DNA of 64,000 bases. It comes from Candidatus Sulfopaludibacter sp. SbA3 (GTDB taxonomy: Bacteria; Acidobacteriota; Vicinamibacteria; Vicinamibacterales; UBA2999). Position numbers and translations under genes: made by a program. The stretch is from the NCBI GenBank assembly GCA_945903265.1, contig CAMDNQ010000003.1:124001-188000 (forward strand), given 5' to 3'. The stretch's first letter is position 1, and the number at the start of each line of letters is the position of its first letter. The notes below the pieces were generated by a model. It searched no databases and was not told the origin of the DNA. It worked only from the letters and a program-made list of their open reading frames with translations. Positions 26,410-37,488 of this stretch are shown here, piece after piece.

Positions 26410-26991
26410 TCAGGGTTGTCCCGAGAGGAACCGCTCGGCCTCGATTTCCTGACGAATCTCGGCCGGCGGACGAGGATTCATCCCTTCCATCTCCTCGATC
26501 TCGGCGGCGGTCAGATCGGGAAGATGCCGGATGAAGTGCACCAGATGCCAGCTCGCAGCCTCGCCGTCCGGCGTTCCGGTGGACCAGCCAGGCATGCCTG
26601 TGAAGCGAATACCGTTTTCGATAATCCAGAACAGCTCGCCGTCGGTGAGCTGCTGGGTGGCCGCCTGCCGCATGTCCGGCGATTTCGGAAACAGGTTTCG
26701 TCCCATCTGGACGTTGCCGCTCCCGTCATTCGCGTGGCAGCTCGCACAGTGATCGGCAAAGTGCGCCCGGCCGTCGGCGAGCGCCTCCACTGACGGCGCG
26801 ACGGGATTCCGCGCGTCACGCGCCTGCGCCGATATTGCAGCGGCGCGCACCGCCCTGGCGACGCGCGCCTCCACCGTCGAGGGTTCACTCCGTGCGGTCA
26901 ACCCTGTCGCGCGAACGTACCAGAATCCGATCGCGGCCGCGATCGCCAGGGTGAGCAGCGAGCCGAGCAGGACGCGAAGCGCCGTCGTCAT
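26410..26991 (-). CDS. Membrane-anchored monohaem cytochrome c
   Basis: 193 residues with an uncleaved-looking N-terminal helix (VLLGSLLTLAIAAAIGFWYV), then a class I cytochrome c domain. The haem-binding site is CASCH near residue 82, and the axial methionine is probably in GIRFTGMPGW. The domain resembles the small c-type cytochromes that sit beside copper-export genes. The start ATG overlaps the stop of the upstream outer-membrane gene by 4 nt (ATGA), indicating translational coupling. Its redox partner is not apparent. Confidence 0.88.
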   Translation of the reverse strand: MTTALRVLLGSLLTLAIAAAIGFWYVRATGLTARSEPSTVEARVARAVRAAAISAQARDARNPVAPSVEALADGRAHFADHCASCHANDGSGNVQMGRNLFPKSPDMRQAATQQLTDGELFWIIENGIRFTGMPGWSTGTPDGEAASWHLVHFIRHLPDLTAAEIEEMEGMNPRPPAEIRQEIEAERFLSGQP

Positions 26992-28334
26992 GGCGCCATC
27001 GCGTGGGCGGCCGGCCTGACAGTCAGAAACAGACCGACACCGAACCCGACGCCTCCGTAACGCGGCCGCAGCGCCTCAGGCACCAGCGCTGCAGAAACGG
27101 TCCCCCCTAGGCCAGGCGTGACGCCATGCCGCGCCGGCAGGTAGTGCGTGTAGCCCCCTTGAAGCTTCCCCACCGTGAATACCTCGTTCGATTCGTGGAT
27201 GTGCAAATCGTGCGCGGGCTTGCCGTTGATTTCAGCGCGGCCAAAGACGGTGTGCCGGTCGGACAACGCCGTGCTCCACTCGGCCGTCAGCCCGTGAGTT
27301 GTTTCTCCCTCTTCCCGATTCAGGCCCCACGCGAGCGTCCCGGCCCACAGGCCCGCGGCGCCGAACCGCCGATGGTATGTGGCCGATGCGGTGACGCGGT
27401 CGACATCGATGCCCGGGCCTCCTGCGTGCGACGGTTCGGCCTCGGTCAGATGGCCCGCTGAGACCTGCAGCGCCAGCGCGGGTGACGGCATCAGCGATAA
27501 CCGGCCGGACACGGAGTCGAGCACAGCGAAGTCGAAATCGTATCTCGCTTCGTCGGGCTCACGCCCGTTGAATAAAGAACCTTCGGCCTTCCACCGTTGC
27601 GCGTAGACGCCGCTGGTGACCACGCCGAAGGTGATGTGCGTGGCATCAAGCCAGTGATGAGCGATCGGCGAGATCGGATTCGGCATGGCCGACAGCCGAT
27701 GCGGAAATCCCGGAGGGCCGAGGGCCGGTTCCCCCGCGAGCCCGCCATACAGCTGCCAGCGCAGCGTCGCGCCAAGTGGGTGCTCGTACTCCGCGGCAAC
27801 TTCCATGAACAGATCGTGGGGATGCTGCTTGTCGTGGATGCTATCGCCGTCGCAGAATTCGCCCGTCGCCAGCAGATTCGGATACCCGCACCCGACAATC
27901 GTCCACGGCTCGAGGCTCATCATCGCGCGCACACCGAACCGGCCCGTGCCAGCCGGACGGCGCGCCATGCCCATGACCCAGTTGATGCTGCCCAGTTGAC
28001 TGGCTCCGCGATGCTCCGGCGCGGCCTCGTGAAGGAACTGCACGAACGCGTTGCCATGGACCATCGTTTCCCATCGGCCGGCCTGGCCGTGGATGCCAAA
28101 CATTGGCGTGAGATCCGGCACCCACGCGGTGCCAGATGCCTCTCGTGGACTGAAGAGGCCGGCGGCGGCGCCATGTTGATGCTCCTGCTGCACCGGCTCA
28201 TTTGGATCCGCCGGCGCGGGCGTCGGCGCGGGGTGCTGGTGAGGCGGGACGCTCTCCTGGGCAAGAGCCCCTGCTGCAGTAAAGACGGTTAGAACAATCG
28301 CGACGGCAAGCTGCGACACGCAACGCATGGACAT
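26988..28334 (-). CDS. Predicted outer-membrane protein with His-rich N-terminus, copper cluster
   Basis: 448 residues with a signal peptide (residues 1-25) and a histidine-rich mature start (PPHQHPAP, QEHQHGAAAG). The body is made of alternating amphipathic strands typical of an outer-membrane beta-barrel (TASATYHRRFGAAGLWAGTL, ALSDRHTVFGRAEINGK, YGGVGFGVGLFLTVR). Two cysteines (CGYPNLLATGEFC) and a HDKQHPHD segment add possible metal ligands. Proteins of this kind often accompany copper ATPases and may bind or channel copper at the outer membrane; no enzyme motif is present. Confidence 0.75.
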   Translation of the reverse strand: MSMRCVSQLAVAIVLTVFTAAGALAQESVPPHQHPAPTPAPADPNEPVQQEHQHGAAAGLFSPREASGTAWVPDLTPMFGIHGQAGRWETMVHGNAFVQFLHEAAPEHRGASQLGSINWVMGMARRPAGTGRFGVRAMMSLEPWTIVGCGYPNLLATGEFCDGDSIHDKQHPHDLFMEVAAEYEHPLGATLRWQLYGGLAGEPALGPPGFPHRLSAMPNPISPIAHHWLDATHITFGVVTSGVYAQRWKAEGSLFNGREPDEARYDFDFAVLDSVSGRLSLMPSPALALQVSAGHLTEAEPSHAGGPGIDVDRVTASATYHRRFGAAGLWAGTLAWGLNREEGETTHGLTAEWSTALSDRHTVFGRAEINGKPAHDLHIHESNEVFTVGKLQGGYTHYLPARHGVTPGLGGTVSAALVPEALRPRYGGVGFGVGLFLTVRPAAHAMAP

Positions 28335-28383: not shown

Positions 28384-28770
28384 TCAGATACGTAGCGCGA
28401 GGGGGGACTGGAGGCGGCCGGGAGCCGCGGAGCGCGTGAATGCGTCGATCACACGTGTCGACACGCCCTGCGCCGGGAGCGACACACTCATACCTGGAGA
28501 GACAGCGACGTCGGGCGGGGGAATTTTTCCAGCGGGCGGCATCGCCTCTTCATGGCCGCAGGCATGTGTGCCGGCCGCCATCGAAAGCCCTTCTGTGTGG
28601 GTGGTGCCATGACACGAGTGAGCGGATGGCGCCGCGGCTGACTCCACCGGCACGCTCGCGCACACGATCTCGCACGCGGTCAGCGCGGCGGGAGCCGCGC
28701 CGACGACGATCGCCATGAGCAGCGCTGCGAGACGCATCGCCCCCAGTATATGCCCGCGAAACGACGGCAT
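28384..28770 (-). CDS. Small secreted Cys/His-rich protein, copper cluster
   Basis: 128 residues from an ATG at 28770, one base after the copA stop codon, with GGAG 7 nt upstream that lies inside copA, so its translation is probably coupled. A signal segment (MRLAALLMAIVVGAAPAALTA) is followed by CEIVC, HSCHGTTH and THACGHEE, a spacing of Cys and His that suggests copper coordination. The remainder is a Pro/Ala-rich tail. I do not recognise a named family. A second in-frame ATG at 28737 would drop the first 11 residues. Confidence 0.65.
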   Translation of the reverse strand: MPSFRGHILGAMRLAALLMAIVVGAAPAALTACEIVCASVPVESAAAPSAHSCHGTTHTEGLSMAAGTHACGHEEAMPPAGKIPPPDVAVSPGMSVSLPAQGVSTRVIDAFTRSAAPGRLQSPLALRI

Positions 28771-28771
28771 C

Positions 28772-31126
28772 TTATAGCTCCGTGCGACGCAGCCGCAGCG
28801 CGTTGCCAATGACCGAGACCGAGCTGAGCGTCATCGCTGCGCTCGCCCAGATGGGGCTGATCAGTACGCCCAGAATCGGAAACAACACGCCCGCCGCGAC
28901 CGGCACGCCGAGCGCGTTGTAGACGAACGCCAGAAAAAGATTCTGCCGCACGTTTCGCATCGTCGCGCGGCTCAATCGCCGCGCTCGAGCGATCCCGCGC
29001 AGGTCACCTTTCACCAATGTGATCCCCGCGCTTTCCATCGCGACGTCGGTCCCGGTCCCCATGGCGATGCCCACCGATGCCTCCGCCAGCGCGGGCGCGT
29101 CGTTGATGCCGTCTCCCGCCATGGCGACGCGATGGCCATCGCGCTGCAGCTGCTGAATGACCTCGCGCTTCTGTGCCGGCAGCACATCGGCGCGCACATC
29201 ATCGAGCCCCAGCCGGCGCGCTACTGCCTGCGCCGTCGTCGCATTGTCGCCGGTGAGCATCACGATGCGGAGCCCCTCCCGATGGAGCATCTCGATCGCC
29301 TCACGCGTCGATGCCTTGATCGGATCGACAACACCAATGAGACCCGCAGCCTTGCCGTCGATGGCCACGAACATCGCCGTGCCGCCGTCCTGCCGCAGCT
29401 CGTCCGCCCGTGCGGCCAGCGCTGCGACGTCGACACTGATGGCCTGCATGAGCGCCAGGTTGCCCAGCGCCACGCGTCGGGAATCGACGTGGCCCGTCAC
29501 TCCCTTGCCAGTGTGCGACTCGAAATCGGCTGCGGCCGGAACGTCGAGGCCGCGCGCGCGCGCACCTCCCACAATGGCCGCGGCGAGCGGGTGCTCGCTG
29601 CCCTGTTCGAGGCCCGCGGCCAGCCGCAGCACCTGGTGCTCCAGAAAGCCTTCGGCCGCTATGACGCTCGAGAGCGTGGGCTTGCCTTCCGTCAACGTCC
29701 CGGTCTTGTCCACCACGACCGTGTCGACACCTTCGAGAAGCTCCAGCGCCTCCGCGTTCTTGATCAGGACGCCTGCCTGCGCGCCGCGTCCGGTGCCGAC
29801 CATAATGGCCATCGGCGTTGCCAGTCCCAGCGCGCACGGACAGGCAATGATCAGCACCGCCACTGCCGTGACCAGGCCCATGGCCAGGCGCGGCTCGGGC
29901 CCCCAGAGGCTCCACGCGGCAAATGCCAGCAGCGAGACGGCGACCACCACGGGAACGAACCACGCGGCCATCCGATCGGCGAGCTTCTGAATCGGCGCGC
30001 GGCTGCGCTGCGCTTCGCTCACCATCCTGACGATTTGCGCGAGCAGCGTATTGGCGCCGACGCGCTCAGCGCGCATGACGACGCTGCCCGTGCCGTTGAC
30101 GGTGCCGCCGGTGAGACGCGCACCGGCATCTTTTTCAACCGGTACAGCTTCGCCCGTGACCATGGACTCATCCACCGACGTGCGTCCCTCGACGACGACG
30201 CCGTCGACCGGAACCTTCTCTCCTGGACGGACGCGAAGCAGGTCGTCGATCACGACGTGCATCAGTGGAACGTCCTCCTCCACGCCAGTGCGAATGCGCC
30301 GGGCCGTCTTCGGCGCCAGACCAAGGAGGGCCTTGATGGCCGTGCTCGTCTGGCTCCGCGCGCGCAGTTCGAGCACCTGACCCAGGAGCACCAGCACGGT
30401 AATCACAACGGCGGTATCGAAGTACGTTTCGACGACCCCGTGCAGGCGGAAGCCTTCGGGGAACAGCCAGGGCGCAACCGTGGCGAGCGCGGAAAACAGA
30501 TATGCCGCGCCCACACCGAGCGCGATGAGCGTGAACATGTTGGGACTGCGGTTTGCGATCGACGCCCAGCCCCGCTCGAAGAACGGCCAGCCGGCCCACC
30601 AGACGACGGGGGTCGCGAGCGCCAGTCCCAGCCAGTTGGCCCACCGTACGTCCACGCGTCCGCCCAGTCCCATGCCCAGGACCATGTCGCCCATCGCCAC
30701 CAGAAAGACGGGCGCCGCGAGCGCGGCGGCAATCCAGAATCGCCGTGTCATGTCGACGAGCTCCGGATTAGGACCGTCGTCAAGCGAGACGGTCATCGGC
30801 TCGAGCGCCATGCCGCATAACGGACACGACCCGGGGCCGTCGCGCACGACCTCGGGATGCATCGGGCAGGTCCACTTCCCCTCGAAAGGCGCCCCGACCG
30901 GCGCCTCGACCGCCAGGGCCTCGGTCTTCGCGAGGAAGCGCTCCGGATCAGCGCGGAACTTCTCCAGACAGCTTTTGCCGCAGAAGTAGTAAGTGTGACC
31001 GGCGTGCGCATGCTGCCCCGCCGCCTTCGCGGGGTTCACGGTCATGCCGCACACCGGGTCGATCACGGTCGGTCCCGTGGGCTCGGCCGGGGGCGTCTGA
31101 ATTACGGGTAAATGGCGTGGCGTCAC
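28772..31126 (-). CDS. copA: Copper-translocating P1B-type ATPase
   Basis: Exports Cu(I) or Ag(I) from the cytoplasm at the expense of ATP. From the GTG at 31126 it is 784 residues: an N-terminal YHS/TRASH-type domain ([11 protein letters not shown]...[12 protein letters not shown], about 20-70), a second metal-binding knuckle [26 protein letters not shown] (about 85-110), eight predicted membrane helices with the ion-site motif [10 protein letters not shown], then the phosphorylation site DKTGTLTEG and the hinge [10 protein letters not shown]. It lacks a classical GMTCxxC heavy-metal domain. The GTG overlaps the TGA of the upstream VTT gene (GTGA), which fixes the start; the open frame beyond it is antisense or shadow sequence. 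Confidence 0.95.
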
Positions 31127-31545
31127 GTGCGGACACTCTGCGACTGTGCAATCCACGCTACCACGAGGTACCTGGCGGCCTTGCCGAGCACGGTCCAGAA
31201 CGAAAACGTTCCGACCGGCACTCGGGCCGCGCCCGCAAGGATGACGATACCGTCGCCGATAAGCGGCACCCAAGATAGCAGCAGCGCCGGCGGACCATAG
31301 CGCTGGAACCAGTCCAGTGCACGCGCGGAGCGAACGGCCGTGGCGCGGCCAATGCGCGAGGAGGCTGCGCGCGCAAGCGCGTAGGTCGTGCAGGCACCGA
31401 GGTAATTGCCGAGGGTGGCGATGGCCACAGGCAGGAAAAGATCGCCATCGCGGCTGACGAGGAGCGCGAGCGGAACCTCAGAGGCGAGGGGCAGGATTGT
31501 CGCGGCCAGAAAGGCGGCGACGAACAGCCCCGCAAGTTCCATCAC
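31123..31545 (-). CDS. YqaA/DedA (VTT domain) membrane protein
   Basis: A 140-residue integral membrane protein with four or five hydrophobic segments and VTT/SNARE-associated features: [12 protein letters not shown], the helix [13 protein letters not shown], and [25 protein letters not shown]. YqaA-like proteins are small DedA relatives; the larger family contains lipid scramblases and flippases, but the function of YqaA is not defined. It is the first gene of the copper cluster, joined to copA by a 4-nt overlap. A copper-related role is suggested only by position. Confidence 0.85.
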
Positions 31546-31563: not shown

Positions 31564-32784
31564 CTAGGGAAGCGTTGCCGTGGCCGTATAAACCTGCAGC
31601 ACATTCGGCGCAGCGCCAGATGGAGCCGCGCTCCAGGCGAACACGAGTTCGTCACCGTCGCGGGCCATTCGGGGAAATCCAGCGGCCCTGCTGCCACCAA
31701 CAGCCGCCACTGTCACGGGCGCCGACCGCTCTCCTTCAGGATGAATCAGACGCAGTCGAAGCTCCGACGATTCCTTGCGGTACTCCACCCACGATGCCAC
31801 GGCCGTCCCATCGTCGAGCAACTCGATGTCGACGCGTCCGAGCGAACCGGCCTCGTCCAGGCGGATTGGTGTCCCCCACGTCTTGCCGCCGTCGCCGGAG
31901 AACGCGGCGTACGCCTGACCGAGGTCGTTCTTCACCGTGAACCAGGCCACAGCCGCCTGCTGGCCGCGCACAGACACCGCTGGCCCGTTGACGGGACACG
32001 CGTAGAGCTCCCAGTTGTCGTTGTGGACAACCGATTCAGGCGTCCACGTGCCGTTGACGAGACGCGAAGTCGCAATGTCGCGAATTTCCTTGTCGGTATG
32101 GTTGCGGTACACGACAAGCGGCCCGTCCGGTGTGACGGCGGCGTCTGTCGAACAGCACTCGCAGACGTTGTGATCGATCTCGGTGTCCACCGTCTGCTTC
32201 CACTGCGCGTCGAACGCGGCATACCGCAGCGTCATGGTCCCGCTCGCCGGATCGTTCTCGAAGTACTCGCTGTTGCGCCCGTCCAGCCAGATGACGCCGA
32301 GGCCGTCGTCCGGCAGGTTCATGAACGAGGCAAAGCCGTGCTGAAACCGCGTGCCGTCGTGGTGAGGCGTAAACGGCGTCGCCCATGTCTTCCCGTTGTC
32401 GGTCGAGTACGACAGCAGCAGGTCGTAGCCTTCGACCTTCACATCGGTGTTGCGGAGCCACTGCGCGACGAGCGTCCCGTTCGTCTTGCGCATGACGGAC
32501 GGCACGTCGGCGTAGCTGAGAAACCAGTCGCTGCCGGACGTCACCGTGATCGGCTGCGTCCATCCGGAAGCCGTGCGCTCGGCAAATTTCAGTGCGACCG
32601 TGTTGCCGGCATGTTCGAGCCAGCTGACGAGGACGCCGCGATCGGACACGGCAAGCTGCGGCTCGCTGCTGTGCCCGCCTGCCGGCGACTCCACAGTCGA
32701 GACATCAACCGTCCATTCGGCGGGATTGGCACTGCCGCACGATACAGCCGCCAGGATCGTCAGGACCGCAAGGGCGTATCGCAT
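31564..32784 (-). CDS. Sialidase-fold (BNR/Asp-box) lipoprotein, paralog A
   Basis: From the ATG at 32784 a 406-residue product begins with a lipoprotein-type signal (MRYALAVLTILAAVSCGSA). The mature protein is a six-bladed sialidase-type propeller with Asp-box motifs STDNGKTW and SGDGGKTW. It lacks the arginine triad of true sialidases as far as I can see, so glycosidase activity is doubtful. It has a CECC motif (HNVCECCSTDA) and an ACPVNGP cysteine. Both are shared with the paralog at 33573-34829, which is strongly similar along its whole length. A metal-binding or sensing function is possible given the neighbouring copper genes. Confidence 0.8.
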   Translation of the reverse strand: MRYALAVLTILAAVSCGSANPAEWTVDVSTVESPAGGHSSEPQLAVSDRGVLVSWLEHAGNTVALKFAERTASGWTQPITVTSGSDWFLSYADVPSVMRKTNGTLVAQWLRNTDVKVEGYDLLLSYSTDNGKTWATPFTPHHDGTRFQHGFASFMNLPDDGLGVIWLDGRNSEYFENDPASGTMTLRYAAFDAQWKQTVDTEIDHNVCECCSTDAAVTPDGPLVVYRNHTDKEIRDIATSRLVNGTWTPESVVHNDNWELYACPVNGPAVSVRGQQAAVAWFTVKNDLGQAYAAFSGDGGKTWGTPIRLDEAGSLGRVDIELLDDGTAVASWVEYRKESSELRLRLIHPEGERSAPVTVAAVGGSRAAGFPRMARDGDELVFAWSAAPSGAAPNVLQVYTATATLP

Positions 32785-32807
32785 CCATGAATGATAGCGG
32801 GGATTCC

Positions 32808-33542
32808 TCATCCGACTTCCAGGCCCCGGATGAGCATCGCCCCGCCGAGCACGGCGAGAATGACTGCTACCACTCGACGAAACGATCGCTCGGGAATCCG
32901 GTCGAGCACCTGCAGTCCGGCGAGCGTGCCGATGACAACTCCCGTCGTCGCGATGGCGATCCACGCAGCGAGCTGCCATATCTCGCTACCCATTGACCAC
33001 AGATACACGGGCACGCGCGCGGCGTCGACCATCAGCGCCACGGCCGTCGCCGTCGTCACGAAGGCGTGCTTGGGGAGATCGACCCCCAACAGCGCGGCCG
33101 ACCGAATTCCACCCTGGTTGCCGACGAGACCGCCGAGAAGACCCGACAGCGCGCCGGCAATCCAGGCCAGCGCACCGCCAAGCTGCATGCGCCGGCCAAA
33201 TCCGGTCAGTTCAGCCGCGGAAGAAAACAGGAGCAGTCCGCCGAACAGGATGAGAAGCGCCGGCGTAGTGGCCCGCTCCTGTAGCAGCGCTCCCAGCAGG
33301 CCGCCCGCCGCGCTCATCACGCCGAAACTCGCGAGCACCCTCCGGTCCACGCGCCCCCCGAGCCGCCAGAAGCGAACGGCGGTGCCGACGACGTGCGGGA
33401 TCGACACGGCCGCCACCGCAAGCTTCGCATCCAGCAGGTGCCACGCGAGCACCGGCGTGACGAGGCTGCCGATGCCGAAGCCCGCGACGGAGGCGACGAT
33501 ACCGCCGGCCACAGCCGACAGCAGGATGAGCGTTTCGACCAC
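32808..33542 (-). CDS. TauE/SafE family permease
   Basis: 244 residues from a GTG at 33542, with about eight hydrophobic helices. The family signature is clear in the two halves: GIVASVAGFGIGSLVTPVLAWHL near the N-terminus and GLLGGLVGNQGGIRSAALLG in the second half. TauE/SafE proteins export sulfite, sulfoacetate or other organosulfur anions, or import related compounds. It stands between the two sialidase-fold paralogs and starts 30 nt from the divergent one, so shared regulation is likely. The extended open frame beyond 33542 is antisense to that paralog. Confidence 0.9.
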   Translation of the reverse strand: MVETLILLSAVAGGIVASVAGFGIGSLVTPVLAWHLLDAKLAVAAVSIPHVVGTAVRFWRLGGRVDRRVLASFGVMSAAGGLLGALLQERATTPALLILFGGLLLFSSAAELTGFGRRMQLGGALAWIAGALSGLLGGLVGNQGGIRSAALLGVDLPKHAFVTTATAVALMVDAARVPVYLWSMGSEIWQLAAWIAIATTGVVIGTLAGLQVLDRIPERSFRRVVAVILAVLGGAMLIRGLEVG

Positions 33543-33572
33543 GACCCGATGGTATGCTTTGCGGCCAGAATC

Positions 33573-34829
33573 ATGACAATACGCACACGTCCGGCGGAAG
33601 CCGGACACTACGTACCCGGGATGATTGTCGGCGTGTGTATCGCCCTCACGATCGCGTGCTCGCGGCCCGCGGATCCCGCCGAATGGACGATGGCGGTTCA
33701 GCGGGTAGCGGCGCCGTCGGGCGTCAACAGCAGCGAGCCGCAGTTCGTCGCGTCGCAGGGCGGCGTCGTCCTCAGCTGGGTCGAGCGTGAGGGCAAGACG
33801 ACGTCGCTGAAATACGCGGAGCGCAGCGGCGCCGGCTGGACGAGCCCTGTGACCGCGGCATCCGGAGACGACTGGTTCCTGAGCTACGCCGATGTGCCCT
33901 CGGTGATGAAGCTGTCGAACGGCACCTACGTGGCGCAGTGGCTCCAGCAGCTCGATCCCTTCCTCGAGGCGTACAACCTGCGCATGGCGTATTCGAAGGA
34001 CAGCGGCAAGACGTGGTCGCCGTCGTTCCTGCCGCATCACGACAACACGCGAACGCAACACGGATTCGCGTCGCTCGTCGAGCTGCCCGGCAGCACCGCG
34101 GGCGTCGTGTGGCTCGACGGGCGCAACAGCGAGTTCGACTTTGATGACCCGGACACCGGGACCATGACGCTCCGCTACGGAGCATTTGACGCCAACTGGA
34201 AACAGATCGCCGATGTGGAAATCGATCACAAGGTGTGCGAGTGCTGCCCCTTGAGCGTCGTGCCCACTGGCGACGGCCTGCTCGCCGGGTTCCGCGATCG
34301 ATCGGACACCGAGGTACGTGACATTGCCGTGTCGCGGCTCGAAGGCGGGAAGTGGACGACTCCGACACCGGTCTTCAACGACAACTGGCAGCTCGATCTC
34401 TGCCCGGTGAACGGACCGATGCTCTCCTCGCGCGGCCGCGATGTGGCCGCCGCCTGGTTCACGGTCAAGAATGATCTCGGCCAGGCATACGCGGCATTCT
34501 CGAGCGACGCCGGCCGCACGTGGACGACCCCGATCCGGCTCGACGATCGCGGGTCGCTCGGCCGGGTCGATGTCGAATTACTGGAGGATGGGTCCGCGCT
34601 GGCGTCGTGGGTCGAATACGCCGAAGGCGCCGCCGACTTCCGCGTGCGCCGCATCGATCGCTCGGGTGCGAAGTCGGGGGCAATCAACGTGGCGCCGGTC
34701 AGCGGCGGTCGCGCGAGCGGGTACCCGCGCATGGCGCTTCAGGGAGAGACGGTGATGTTTGCGTGGACCGACAGTGACGACGCGACCGGTCAGCTGCAGA
34801 TGATGACCGCGGTCGGCGAACTTCCCTAG
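33573..34829 (+). CDS. Sialidase-fold (BNR/Asp-box) lipoprotein, paralog B
   Basis: A 418-residue product, close paralog of the gene at 31564-32784: DWFLSYADVPSVM, WLDGRNSE, TMTLRY, CECC, CPVNGP and AAWFTVKNDLGQAYAAFS are shared. Asp-boxes are SKDSGKTW and SSDAGRTW. The ATG at 33573 is used because a later ATG at 33621 would leave a signal peptide with no positive charge. With the longer start, the N-region RTRPAEAGHYVPG is encoded by a REP-like hairpin and supplies the basic residues. The hydrophobic stretch MIVGVCIALTIAC ends in a possible lipid-modified cysteine, although the lipobox is imperfect. Confidence 0.8.
   Translation: MTIRTRPAEAGHYVPGMIVGVCIALTIACSRPADPAEWTMAVQRVAAPSGVNSSEPQFVASQGGVVLSWVEREGKTTSLKYAERSGAGWTSPVTAASGDDWFLSYADVPSVMKLSNGTYVAQWLQQLDPFLEAYNLRMAYSKDSGKTWSPSFLPHHDNTRTQHGFASLVELPGSTAGVVWLDGRNSEFDFDDPDTGTMTLRYGAFDANWKQIADVEIDHKVCECCPLSVVPTGDGLLAGFRDRSDTEVRDIAVSRLEGGKWTTPTPVFNDNWQLDLCPVNGPMLSSRGRDVAAAWFTVKNDLGQAYAAFSSDAGRTWTTPIRLDDRGSLGRVDVELLEDGSALASWVEYAEGAADFRVRRIDRSGAKSGAINVAPVSGGRASGYPRMALQGETVMFAWTDSDDATGQLQMMTAVGELP
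33589..33611 (-). repeat. REP-like unit inside the signal peptide region of sialidase-fold paralog B
   Basis: GTCCGGC (33589-33595), loop GGAA, GCCGGAC (33600-33606), then ACTAC (33607-33611). Read on the minus strand it is GTAG, one base, and a perfect 7-bp hairpin. Its loop and arms differ in sequence from the units at 6938 and 16851 but follow the same layout. Confidence 0.7.
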
Positions 34830-34833
34830 AGAG

Positions 34834-34852
34834 ACTAGAGACTTCCTCTAGT
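34834..34852. terminator. Small hairpin between convergent genes
   Basis: ACTAGAG (34834-34840), loop ACTTC, CTCTAGT (34846-34852). It spans the gap between the stop codons at 34829 and 34848. A weak 7-bp stem with no T-run; a bidirectional terminator is possible. Confidence 0.35.
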
Positions 34853-35246
34853 TCATCATCTGGCGGCCTGGCGGCATCTTCCAGTCCAGGCCGTCCTTGA
34901 CCCGCCGCAGGCTCAACATCCGCACACGGTTATCGCCCGCGGTGGCGCCCGGCATTCCGCTGATGACGACGCGGTCGCCCTGCTTCAGCGTGGTCCGCGT
35001 GATGCCGTCACGCACCAGCTCGCCGGCACCCACCCACTCGACGTCGTAACGCACGCGCGCGCCGCGCTGCTGCACCACCACCTGGATGAACGAATGGGGA
35101 TTCCGGAAGACGATCTGGGCGAGCTCGCCCTCGATCGTGACCGTCCGATTCTCGATGTACGTGCCGGGAAACGAATGGTGGGCGGACGCCGCAGGCGCGA
35201 GCGCGCATGCGCCAGCCGTCAGCACCGCCGCCACAACACGTCTCAT
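34848..35246 (-). CDS. DUF6152 family secreted protein
   Basis: 132 residues from an ATG at 35246, which has AGGG 9 nt upstream (in-frame ATGs at 35255 and 35267 are alternatives). A signal peptide (MRRVVAAVLTAGACALAPAASAHH) precedes a small beta-domain with the family pattern: HHSFPGTYIENRTVTIEGELAQIVFRNPHSFI, then GDRVVISGMPGATAGDNRVRMLSLRR. DUF6152 proteins are abundant in Acidobacteriota and some proteobacteria and have no known function. It stands alone, convergent with the sialidase-fold gene. Confidence 0.82.
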   Translation of the reverse strand: MRRVVAAVLTAGACALAPAASAHHSFPGTYIENRTVTIEGELAQIVFRNPHSFIQVVVQQRGARVRYDVEWVGAGELVRDGITRTTLKQGDRVVISGMPGATAGDNRVRMLSLRRVKDGLDWKMPPGRQMMN

Positions 35247-35353
35247 GCGGATCATCCCTGACAGCATACGTCCACGAAAATAGTAGCCGACCGGGGAAAT
35301 GGGGCGCCTGAATAGTCCCTGAATTCTTCGTCAGAATTTCGCCGACCTGCACC

Positions 35354-36276: not shown

Positions 36277-37488
36277 TTATCGGGGCCACACCGCTCCCTG
36301 TTGCCGCGGCACCGATGCGATGCCCCGGTACACGAATTTCTGGAGCCGCTTCCCTTCCCAGGTTTCCGTCGTATAGAGATTTCCCTTCGAGTCGATCGCG
36401 ATGCTGTGGACGCCGTAGAACTGTCCCGGCTGCCGCCCGCCGTCGCCAAAACTCGCCACCACGTCCAGCGTCTCCCGCAGTACCACGTGGATGCGGTTGT
36501 TCATGCCGTCGACCACGAAGAGATAGCGCTGCTGCGGATCGCGCGAGAATGCGAGGTCCCAGACCGACCCCGCGGCCAGTGTCCGCCTGGCAATGAATCC
36601 CTCTTTGACGAACGTGCCGTCCTTGCGAAAGACCTGGATGCGGTCGTTCACGCGGTCGCACACATAGAGCAGGCCGTCGTTGGCGAGGTCCGCGCAGTGG
36701 ACCGGATTGCGGAACTGCTGCGCGGGCGGGGCGTCCGGGTTGTACGGGCCCAGATTCCGGTCGTCCGGCTTGTTGCCGTATGCGCCCCAGTAGCGCTTCA
36801 TCTTGCCGGTGTCGGCATCGAGGACCGCGACGCGCTTGTTCAGATAGCCGTCCGCGAGGTACGCCTCGTTCTCTTTCGGGTCCACGAAGATCTTCGCGAC
36901 GCGCCCGAAATTCTGCATGTCATTGCTGTCGCCGGGATAGGTCGAGAGTCCCTCCGCGTTGGTCGGGCCGCGGCGCACGGCGGCCTTGCCGTACTGCGCG
37001 ATGAACTTGCCGTTTCTCGTGAACTTCAGGACGTGCGAATCGGCGGCGCCGTTGCCGCCAATCCAGACGTTGCCCTTGTAATCGACAAAGATGCCGTGGT
37101 TCGACTGGGGCCATTCGTAGCCCTGTCCCGGGCCGCCCCACGACTGCACCAGGTTGCCGGCGGCGTCGAACTCCAGTACGGGCGGCGCGCCCGCGCAGCA
37201 CTCCGCGGTCTTCAGCTCGATGCCCTTTTCGTTGTCATCCAGCGTCGCGGAACTGCGATGAATGATCCAGACGTGGTCGCGCTCATCGACCCACACGCCG
37301 ATCGCCGAGCCGAGCAGCCAGTGATTCGGCAGCGGTTTGGGCCACAGCGGATCGACTTCGAAGCGGGGCGCGCGCACGGTGCCGCCGCCTTCCTGTGCCG
37401 TGACGCGCTGGAGAACGGCTTCAGTGACGGCCAGCGAGGCGAGCACGACGACGAAGGCTGCCGCGACGATCCGATTACGTTTCGTCAT
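36277..37488 (-). CDS. Secreted NHL-repeat beta-propeller protein
   Basis: 403 residues with a signal peptide (residues 1-32, ending RVTAQ) and a six-bladed NHL propeller. Blades include LEFDAAGNLVQSWGGPGQG, GIFVDYKGNVWIGGNG, KIFVDPKENEAYLADGYLNKRVAVLD, LLYVCDRVNDRIQVFRKDG and SIAIDSKGNLYTTETWEGKRLQKF. The architecture resembles the lyase domain of peptidylglycine alpha-amidating enzymes, but an enzymatic role is not shown. A CC pair (AECCAGAPP) is conserved-looking. The start ATG overlaps the 3' end of the hupE-like gene by 14 nt. Last gene of a long minus-strand unit. Confidence 0.8.
   Translation of the reverse strand: MTKRNRIVAAAFVVVLASLAVTEAVLQRVTAQEGGGTVRAPRFEVDPLWPKPLPNHWLLGSAIGVWVDERDHVWIIHRSSATLDDNEKGIELKTAECCAGAPPVLEFDAAGNLVQSWGGPGQGYEWPQSNHGIFVDYKGNVWIGGNGAADSHVLKFTRNGKFIAQYGKAAVRRGPTNAEGLSTYPGDSNDMQNFGRVAKIFVDPKENEAYLADGYLNKRVAVLDADTGKMKRYWGAYGNKPDDRNLGPYNPDAPPAQQFRNPVHCADLANDGLLYVCDRVNDRIQVFRKDGTFVKEGFIARRTLAAGSVWDLAFSRDPQQRYLFVVDGMNNRIHVVLRETLDVVASFGDGGRQPGQFYGVHSIAIDSKGNLYTTETWEGKRLQKFVYRGIASVPRQQGAVWPR

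Follow-up and report, generated by a model that had tools for sequence, protein, structure and literature searches.

Gene organization of the locus

Propellers A and B are two lipoproteins encoded within a 64,000-nucleotide stretch of the genome of Candidatus Sulfopaludibacter sp. SbA3, which is called the window throughout. Together with a TauE/SafE permease they make up the three genes between positions 31564 and 34829 (Table 1). Both proteins belong to a family that is characterized by four cysteines in the motifs CxCC and CPxxGP, and these two sisters with the name "sialidase" probably deal with copper and thiols instead of cutting sugars. They are 56% identical, each has a lipobox, and both carry CECC and CPVNGP, which bears out the first-pass annotation of the window, in which they were described as paralogous lipoproteins sharing these two motifs.

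The permease gene is separated from propeller A by 23 bp on the same strand, and the two are therefore probably co-transcribed. Propeller B is divergent and lies 75 bp away. The arrangement had been described as a divergent pair around the permease; this fits propeller B and the central position of the permease, but permease and propeller A are co-directional. A series of minus-strand genes begins 18 bp beyond propeller A and consists, in this order, of a VTT-domain protein, a P1B-type ATPase, a small His/Cys-rich protein, a 448-aa protein, and a c-type cytochrome. The ATPase scores 592 bits against TIGR01511 (cut-off 397) and contains YHS and HMBD metal-binding domains, so the copper-export cluster reported earlier does lie directly beside the propellers. 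The close packing of the genes suggests a single copper operon led by the permease and propeller A. A scan for promoters and terminators yielded nothing above chance. The long N-terminal extensions of the listed propeller open reading frames (ORFs) seem to result from reading on through antisense or intergenic DNA.

Table 1. Features of the locus in the window and, in the last row, propeller genes of the class set that are fused to a thioredoxin domain
Feature	Position	Strand	Remarks
Propeller A, lipoprotein, 406 aa, lipobox AVS-C, seven-bladed family with CxCC and CPxxGP	31564..32784	-	56% identical to propeller B
Propeller A, CECC motif, residues 208-211	32152..32163	-	
Propeller A, CPVNGP motif, fourth cysteine is residue 263	31981..31998	-	
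TauE/SafE-family permease, about 245 aa	32808..33545	-	PF01925 E 1.1e-26; also recovered by genome search
Intergenic spacer of the divergent pair TauE/propeller B; contains a dispersed palindromic repeat (33589-33613)	33546..33620	.	
Propeller B, lipoprotein, 402 aa, lipobox TIA-C, predicted seven-bladed (pLDDT 93.7)	33621..34829	+	
Propeller B, CECC motif, residues 206-209	34236..34247	+	
Propeller B, CPVNGP motif, fourth cysteine is residue 261	34401..34418	+	
VTT-domain membrane protein, 18 bp past propeller A	31123..31545	-	PF09335 E 1.1e-10
Copper P1B-type ATPase with YHS and HMBD domains, start uncertain (31273 or 31066)	28772..31273	-	TIGR01511, PF04945, PF19335
Small His/Cys-rich protein, probably exported, without family	28384..28809	-	
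448-aa protein in the copper cluster, probably exported, without confident family match	26988..28334	-	
c-type cytochrome, CBB3-type domain	26410..26991	-	PF13442 E 6e-11
DUF6152 protein, convergent to propeller B, 18 bp away	34848..35267	-	PF19649 E 5e-19
Propeller with C-terminal TlpA-type thioredoxin	L085:9025-10644, L088:2792-4426, L092:446-2077		

Distribution and naming of the family

The family is real and widespread, and it is without a name in Pfam and NCBIfam. A search with propeller B (E 0.001, distant paralogs counted) found members in 41 of 43 same-family genomes and in 124 of 193 same-class genomes; a profile search at E 1e-20 recovered them in 71 of 297 genomes sampled across the phylum. 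A scan of named genomes confirmed at least 208 candidate stretches. Eighty of these loci were kept, and all counts for the named set rest on them; their titles point to Acidobacteria, Bacteroidetes (Ignavibacteriales, Rhodothermaceae, Flavobacteriaceae, and others), Gemmatimonadetes, Planctomycetes, candidate division KSB1, and Alpha- and Gammaproteobacteria. The named set and the class set (80 loci, 81 ORFs) overlap, mostly in L127-L146 plus L183, so their counts are not to be summed. The term "other named loci" stands for L147-L206 (n = 60), which lie mostly but not wholly outside the class.

No NCBIfam model names propeller A, propeller B, or the tested members, one from the Roseobacter group, one from Methylomagnum, and the distant one of the same genome. 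Pfam assigns BNR_2 to propellers A and B at threshold only, and public records carry the plasmid members as "sialidase family protein". No relative was confirmed in a scan of IMG/VR. Within the genome of the window, the search with propeller B returned three matches, namely B, A, and a distant one at G000:C3:10555-11163. The latter belongs to a distant paralog (L106, G000:C3:10534-11445) with the motifs CYCC and CPENGP. Its neighbor is a large protein of cluster 11 (>900 aa, not itself scanned), as is also the case in L104.

The four conserved cysteines

CxCC and CPxxGP are present in all 81 ORFs of the class set; a pattern recognized 77 of them, and the remaining four, which have CPHQGP, CPHHGP, or CPEDGP, were identified by reading the sequence. 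The 80 named loci likewise all contain CxCC and CPxNG[PA]; since these loci were found through patterns from other parts of the protein, the complete count is not circular. A joint alignment of 75 class and 60 named rows, with at least one record in both, comprises 130 main and five distant rows. The class alignment behind it omitted eight of the 81 ORFs: near duplicates, fragments, and propellers A and B, whose sequences were instead entered from the window itself. C206, C208, C209, R225, R233, C261, P262, G265, and W279 (numbering of propeller B) are 100% conserved in the joint alignment, and 121 of the 135 rows hold no cysteine other than these four after residue 60. A Methylomagnum homolog with 23% identity still retains CTCC and CPHC. 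Loss of the cysteines in other members, which had earlier been considered, was not seen in any member examined. The DNA word encoding CECC is not enriched as a genome-wide marker (six places, with six for the reversed control), and the signal resides in the protein family.

In the predicted model, with the topology assigned by strand order, CxCC (C206-C209) falls in the loop that joins blades 3 and 4 and C261 of the CPxxGP motif in the one that joins blades 4 and 5, with R225 and R233 on either side of the B-C loop of blade 4. By strand order rather than by distances, the cysteines and both arginines would all lie on one face around blade 4. Judged by sequence, the cysteines define the family rather than being incidental.

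Predicted fold and the sialidase label

Propeller B was modeled with AlphaFold2 from 75 sequences at a pLDDT of 93.7 and a pTM of 0.90. Strands assigned by DSSP fall, in our own grouping, into seven four-stranded blades, with an N-terminal strand closing the propeller. The best structural alignments are to CylK (Z 30.6), PLL lectins (about 28), and integrin heads (about 24.5), all of which we take to be seven-bladed propellers. Foldseek places sialidases on top by E-value, with a TM-score of only about 0.5. The fold is thus confidently predicted to be a seven-bladed propeller and not the six-bladed sialidase fold that the first-pass annotation had assigned.

At the level of sequence, the sialidase label depends on matches close to the threshold. 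BNR_2 (PF13088) has a cut-off of 31.4 bits, and propeller B reaches 32.1 as mature ORF or 31.6 as long ORF, propeller A 31.0. At E 1e-5, BNR_2 is matched by 63 of 75 members. An Asp-box is present, with S125, D127, G129, and W132 conserved, and the BNR/Asp-box matches remain below the Pfam cut-off. The position of the FRIP arginine, according to a weak alignment to Sialidase B, is taken by Asp91 within ADVPSV in all 130 main rows. Neither sequence nor profile searches detected a solved relative over the full length; the matches were limited to short stretches of sialidases. A match to the SBP56 Pfam domain was absent in A and B at E 0.1 and in 75 members at E 1e-5, and no Sco-type thioredoxin domain (CxxxC) was matched by Pfam in A or B. 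Fold, residues, and gene context make sialidase activity very improbable, and this reading was set aside.

Copper genes in the neighborhood

A copper or heavy-metal gene (ATPase, CusA, CusB, multicopper oxidase, CopB, DUF1775, or CDF) lies within 5 kb of the propeller in 32 of 80 class loci. The window's clade accounts for most of them, with 27 of 42 loci versus 4 of 40 control regions (Fisher P 2.6e-7, relatedness uncorrected). Among the loci of this clade whose contigs reach 5 kb on both sides, 13 of 22 have such a gene. The control comprises 40 regions of 11.2 kb at preset and not random places in nine of the same genomes, and 22 regions come from just two genomes (G148, G189). It was run identically to the metal-gene search, which used single reference sequences at E 1e-8; the CusA and ATPase references may also catch other RND pumps and P-type ATPases. 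The copper link is genuine, but it varies with lineage and is not universal. The first-pass annotation had viewed the cysteines as a ligand site, had placed them next to copper genes, and had counted on a link to copper or TauE among other family members. The cysteines are indeed family-defining (81/81 and 80/80), and the copper link holds in the window's clade and on plasmids but shows no clear excess in the rest of the family, while TauE is found in one clade.

P1B copper-type ATPases are encoded within 2 kb of the propeller in 14 of 80 class loci and within 5 kb in 22, and in six loci the distance is 100 bp or less (L049, L050, L052, L053, L071, L121). HMBD proteins occur within 3 kb of 5 of 45 propellers, compared to 0.12 expected, and two of the five are the window pair. 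In this test 66 HMBD proteins were considered, HMBD repeats within one protein were merged by hand, and weaker propeller matches and the second fragment of one gene were omitted. The commonest families among 136 nearest neighbors in the class set are HMBD (7), P-type ATPase (6), DUF6152 (6), and CBB3-type cytochrome c (5); this set holds 136 of 138 proteins, as propeller B itself and one very long ORF were excluded. The gene caller misses some membrane genes, including the window's TauE, so that nearest-neighbor tallies are lower bounds. Cytochrome c is found within 400 bp in 8 of 80 class loci, and relatives of the window's cytochrome (26410-26991) directly adjoin a propeller in other genomes. 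DUF6152 is a recurrent neighbor as well (within 2 kb in 8 of 80 class loci).

Two further arrangements were observed. A VTT-domain gene adjoins the propeller also in three Rhodobacterales loci with the same gene cluster (L171, L178, L180), beside copper or CDF genes; only the L171 protein (L171:7010-7681) was scanned, with a Pfam E-value of 9.2e-22. In L051, L124, and L126 the order is propeller, cytochrome c, FeoA, and FeoB, with a CopA-type ATPase within 5 kb, which makes a tie between copper and iron handling possible (Pfam was run on one FeoB).

Plasmid-borne members

Members of the family are carried by 63 or 64 plasmid records, nearly all from Rhodobacterales, and 28 of these plasmids are typed as conjugative. 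The regions viewed were taken from the top of the match list, and many of the plasmids are near copies. All nine Rhodobacterales plasmid regions viewed contain a multicopper oxidase or other copper genes, and the gene directly upstream of the propeller encodes a cytochrome c in four of them and a multicopper oxidase in two. A DsbA-family protein or a protein-disulfide isomerase is encoded in 4/9. Some plasmids additionally carry CDF and mer genes, and some arsenic genes. In the Methylomagnum region, a distant CxCC member precedes CopC by 11 bp, and amo-type genes are about 5 kb away from it.

Thioredoxin neighbors and fusions

TlpA-type proteins form a second group of neighbors. Nine of the 60 other named loci and six of the 80 class loci encode one within 2 kb, in three of the six as a fusion, and none of the 40 control regions has one; five of the nine named loci represent one repeated Gemmatimonadetes block. 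Nine of ten clustered TlpA-type proteins contain WCxPC, and AhpC-TSA makes up 11 of the 107 nearest neighbors of the other named loci. A propeller with a C-terminal thioredoxin domain of the AhpC-TSA/TlpA type was found in 3 of 81 class ORFs, from three genera and with a length of about 540 residues, and in 0 of 80 named loci. Such a fusion provides good evidence for an action of the thioredoxin on the propeller. The protein that follows the L085 and L088 fusions has a DsbA-like CPFC or CPYC stretch by sequence reading, without a family search.

TauE permease

The window's TauE is a complete family member (PF01925, 94.4 bits versus a cut-off of 32.6, profile positions 2-237 of 237). A tblastn search with it showed TauE adjoining the propeller in 6 of 80 class loci. 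Among the matches listed for PF01925 in the 43 genomes of the same family were the same six and two more genes, about 6 kb away in G023, one of which adjoins a distant paralog. In the tree, the TauE-linked propellers (seven rows, including A and B) fall within one nine-row set with 100/97 support inside the copper-linked clade. As TauE is confined to this one small clade, it looks like a late recruit with an accessory role there, and the window pair looks like a duplication within the same clade. TauE was rejected as a general partner. Permease and propellers had also been proposed to form a periplasmic binding and export system for a sulfur- or metal-containing compound; nothing found shows a sulfur substrate or a three-part system. 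Copper ATPase, cytochrome c, multicopper oxidase, and TlpA-type thioredoxin are better partners than TauE.

A protein of about 100 residues with a shared ER-x-CC-x-F motif occurs in three TauE-linked loci (L108:3289-3594, L109:5831-6136, L112:3002-3307) and in one other (L084:10386-10733). It has no match in Pfam (L108, L109) or in NCBIfam (L108).

Additional observations in the window

The palindrome at 33589-33613 is perfect with arms of 7 bp, and its 23-base core occurs 13 times in the genome with up to two mismatches (reversed control, 0). Read-through of this palindrome gives rise to a PAEAGHY peptide in the over-extended ORF. The exported form of the DUF6152 protein (34848-35267) may begin near a His-His pair (ASAHHSF), which is reminiscent of histidine-brace copper proteins. 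At 36277-37488 the window encodes an NHL-repeat propeller with an ECC motif (KTAECCAGAPPV) that is also present in the longest member of its cluster. Homologs of this protein (cluster 16) recur near the propeller family in several genomes.

Proposed function and alternative explanations

With moderate confidence, the family is regarded as exported seven-bladed propellers whose four-cysteine site binds copper and cycles between dithiol and disulfide together with TlpA or cytochrome c. In this mechanism the face formed by CxCC and CPxxGP would bind copper, most likely Cu(I) as thiolate, and its cysteines would alternate between the dithiol and the disulfide state. TlpA-type thioredoxins would reduce the site, or a c-type cytochrome would exchange electrons with it. 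In the genome of the window, Cu(I) would reach the periplasm through the CopA-type ATPase and would then, on the envelope side, be buffered, passed on, or oxidized by the two propellers. We infer copper binding, the specificity for Cu(I), redox cycling, and the electron partner and its direction.

More tentatively, the propellers may represent a new class of envelope copper protein that is hidden under the name "sialidase", is spread by plasmids, and provides a thiol-redox step between CopA export and multicopper oxidase or cytochrome c. This could be, for example, the binding and oxidation of Cu(I) with electrons passed to cytochrome c, or a TlpA-driven reduction and loading. The class would then be found in at least Acidobacteriota, Bacteroidota, Gemmatimonadota, Planctomycetota, and Proteobacteria, and on conjugative plasmids. 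If true, many sialidase/BNR-repeat genes are misannotated copper and thiol homeostasis proteins, a new fold is added to periplasmic copper handling, and the "sialidases" in copper-responsive clusters of ammonia oxidizers and on marine plasmids gain a candidate role.

Several observations count against a copper-binding redox protein. Beyond the window's clade, 5 of 38 class loci have a metal gene within 5 kb, as do 8 of 60 other named loci; this is not clearly above 4 of 40 in the control, and a copper link is therefore not claimed for those lineages. Three of the eight named loci are from Rhodobacterales and have a CDF transporter and, about 5 kb off, a multicopper oxidase; another is from a gammaproteobacterium with CusB and CusA. 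TlpA and metal genes come together in one locus only (L151), and none of the three TlpA fusions adjoins copper genes. The metal itself could be Zn, Ag, or Hg given the nearby CDF and mer genes, and the FeoAB genes in the operon of three genomes make iron possible. Roseobacter litoralis, a plasmid of which carries a member, was less copper-tolerant and more zinc-tolerant than R. denitrificans (PMC3141670). Lastly, the cysteines at which we infer copper binding could form two structural disulfides.

The strongest competitor, although rather doubtful, builds on this last point. Here the propeller would serve efflux complexes as a scaffold or adaptor, its conserved face would bind a protein or ligand, and it would have no metal or redox role of its own. 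Propellers commonly serve as scaffolds, exactly four cysteines in 121 of 135 rows fit two disulfides in an oxidizing compartment, and the makers of such bonds (DsbA-family or protein-disulfide isomerase) are encoded in 4 of 9 plasmid regions. Against this, the invariance of all four cysteines over several phyla, at 35-40% identity to propeller B, is matched by very few other residues. A vicinal pair such as C208-C209 is unusual in plain structural disulfides, the fused or adjacent TlpA-type thioredoxin with WCxxC suggests reduction, and the invariant Arg225, Arg233, and Trp279 would be needless in a plain scaffold.

An oxidoreductase or binder of sulfur compounds (sulfite, thiosulfate, thiols) is improbable. 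TauE would export or import the anion and copper would be a cofactor or a chance neighbor, as in SBP56. The position of TauE, 23 bp from A and divergent to B, and its recurrence in six loci speak for this function, and a seven-bladed copper propeller acting on thiols exists in SBP56/SELENBP1 (PMC5739008, PMC10362175). TauE is nonetheless confined to one small clade, no sulfur-metabolism family appears in the top 25 families of either nearest-neighbor set (107 and 136 proteins), and the propellers neither match the SBP56 family nor show its histidine copper motifs among their invariant columns. Handling of iron or of several soft metals (Fe(II)/Cu(I)/Ag(I)/Hg(II)) in the periplasm, rather than of copper as such, is also unlikely. 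It would account for FeoA-FeoB behind propeller and cytochrome c in three genomes, for the CDF, mercury, and arsenic genes of some plasmids, and for the zinc rather than copper tolerance of R. litoralis (PMC3141670). All three FeoAB loci, however, have a CopA-type ATPase within 5 kb, and the commonest specific partners (CopA, CusCBA, CopB, CopC, multicopper oxidase) are copper proteins. A true exo-sialidase or other glycan-cleaving enzyme, as the database names imply, is very improbable. Asp boxes, the BNR_2 match in 63 of 75 members, short profile matches to solved sialidases, and the top Foldseek rank by E-value point in this direction. They are opposed by the seven blades of the model, by CylK, PLL lectins, and integrins as best structures (Z 24-31), by Asp91 where the FRIP arginine is expected (on a weak sequence match), by invariant residues that are Cys, Arg, and Trp, and by a gene context of copper and thiol redox chemistry.

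Comparison with known systems

The proposed copper-binding propeller with redox-active cysteines can be set beside several known systems. The GH33 sialidases and BNR_2 proteins share Asp boxes, a β-propeller, and weak sequence similarity with the family. They differ by six blades and the FRIP arginine, whereas the family has seven blades, an aspartate at this position, four invariant cysteines, and a copper/thiol context. The gene content of Cop/Cus/Pco clusters is mirrored in the CopA-type ATPase, multicopper oxidase, CusCBA, CopB, CopC, and cytochrome c that recur around the propeller. Sco proteins adopt the thioredoxin fold and carry CxxxC plus a histidine. The family departs from this plan, as it lacks a Sco domain and carries CxCC and CPxxGP on seven blades. 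Its four invariant cysteines would be compatible with Cu(I) held by thiolates.

Among ammonia-oxidizing archaea, a "putative sialidase neuraminidase family protein" is labeled in the copper-limitation-induced clusters of Nitrososphaera viennensis, together with DsbD, plastocyanin, and multicopper oxidase (PMC7785015), and two "sialidases" stand beside a ccd biogenesis protein in N. franklandianus (PMC12448741). These proteins are likened to the family by annotated name and context, and their context is copper limitation and not export. In literature searches on copper, no paper that treats the family as a copper protein was found, and the archaeal "sialidase" papers were the only ones found to list such a name with copper genes; the term "sialidase" was absent from four bacterial copper or metal papers that were word-searched for it.

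The copper-dependent methanethiol (thiol) oxidase SBP56/SELENBP1 resembles the family in having seven blades, in being exported in bacteria, and in combining copper with thiol chemistry (PMC5739008, PMC10362175). Its gene neighbors mature copper proteins, which is a further likeness, although these are SCO1 with mauG there and copper efflux genes here. SBP56 is reported to bind copper via histidines (and Asp/Glu), whereas the propeller family has invariant cysteines and no SBP56 Pfam match. In Bradyrhizobium, the reduction of the copper protein ScoI by TlpA is established (PMC6696091). The TlpA-ScoI/CoxB system likewise pairs a periplasmic, copper-tied cysteine protein with a TlpA-type reductant, and TlpA is adjacent or fused to some of the propellers. 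By analogy, TlpA with ScoI would be the nearest working model and SBP56/SELENBP1 the precedent for the propeller family, which belongs to neither.

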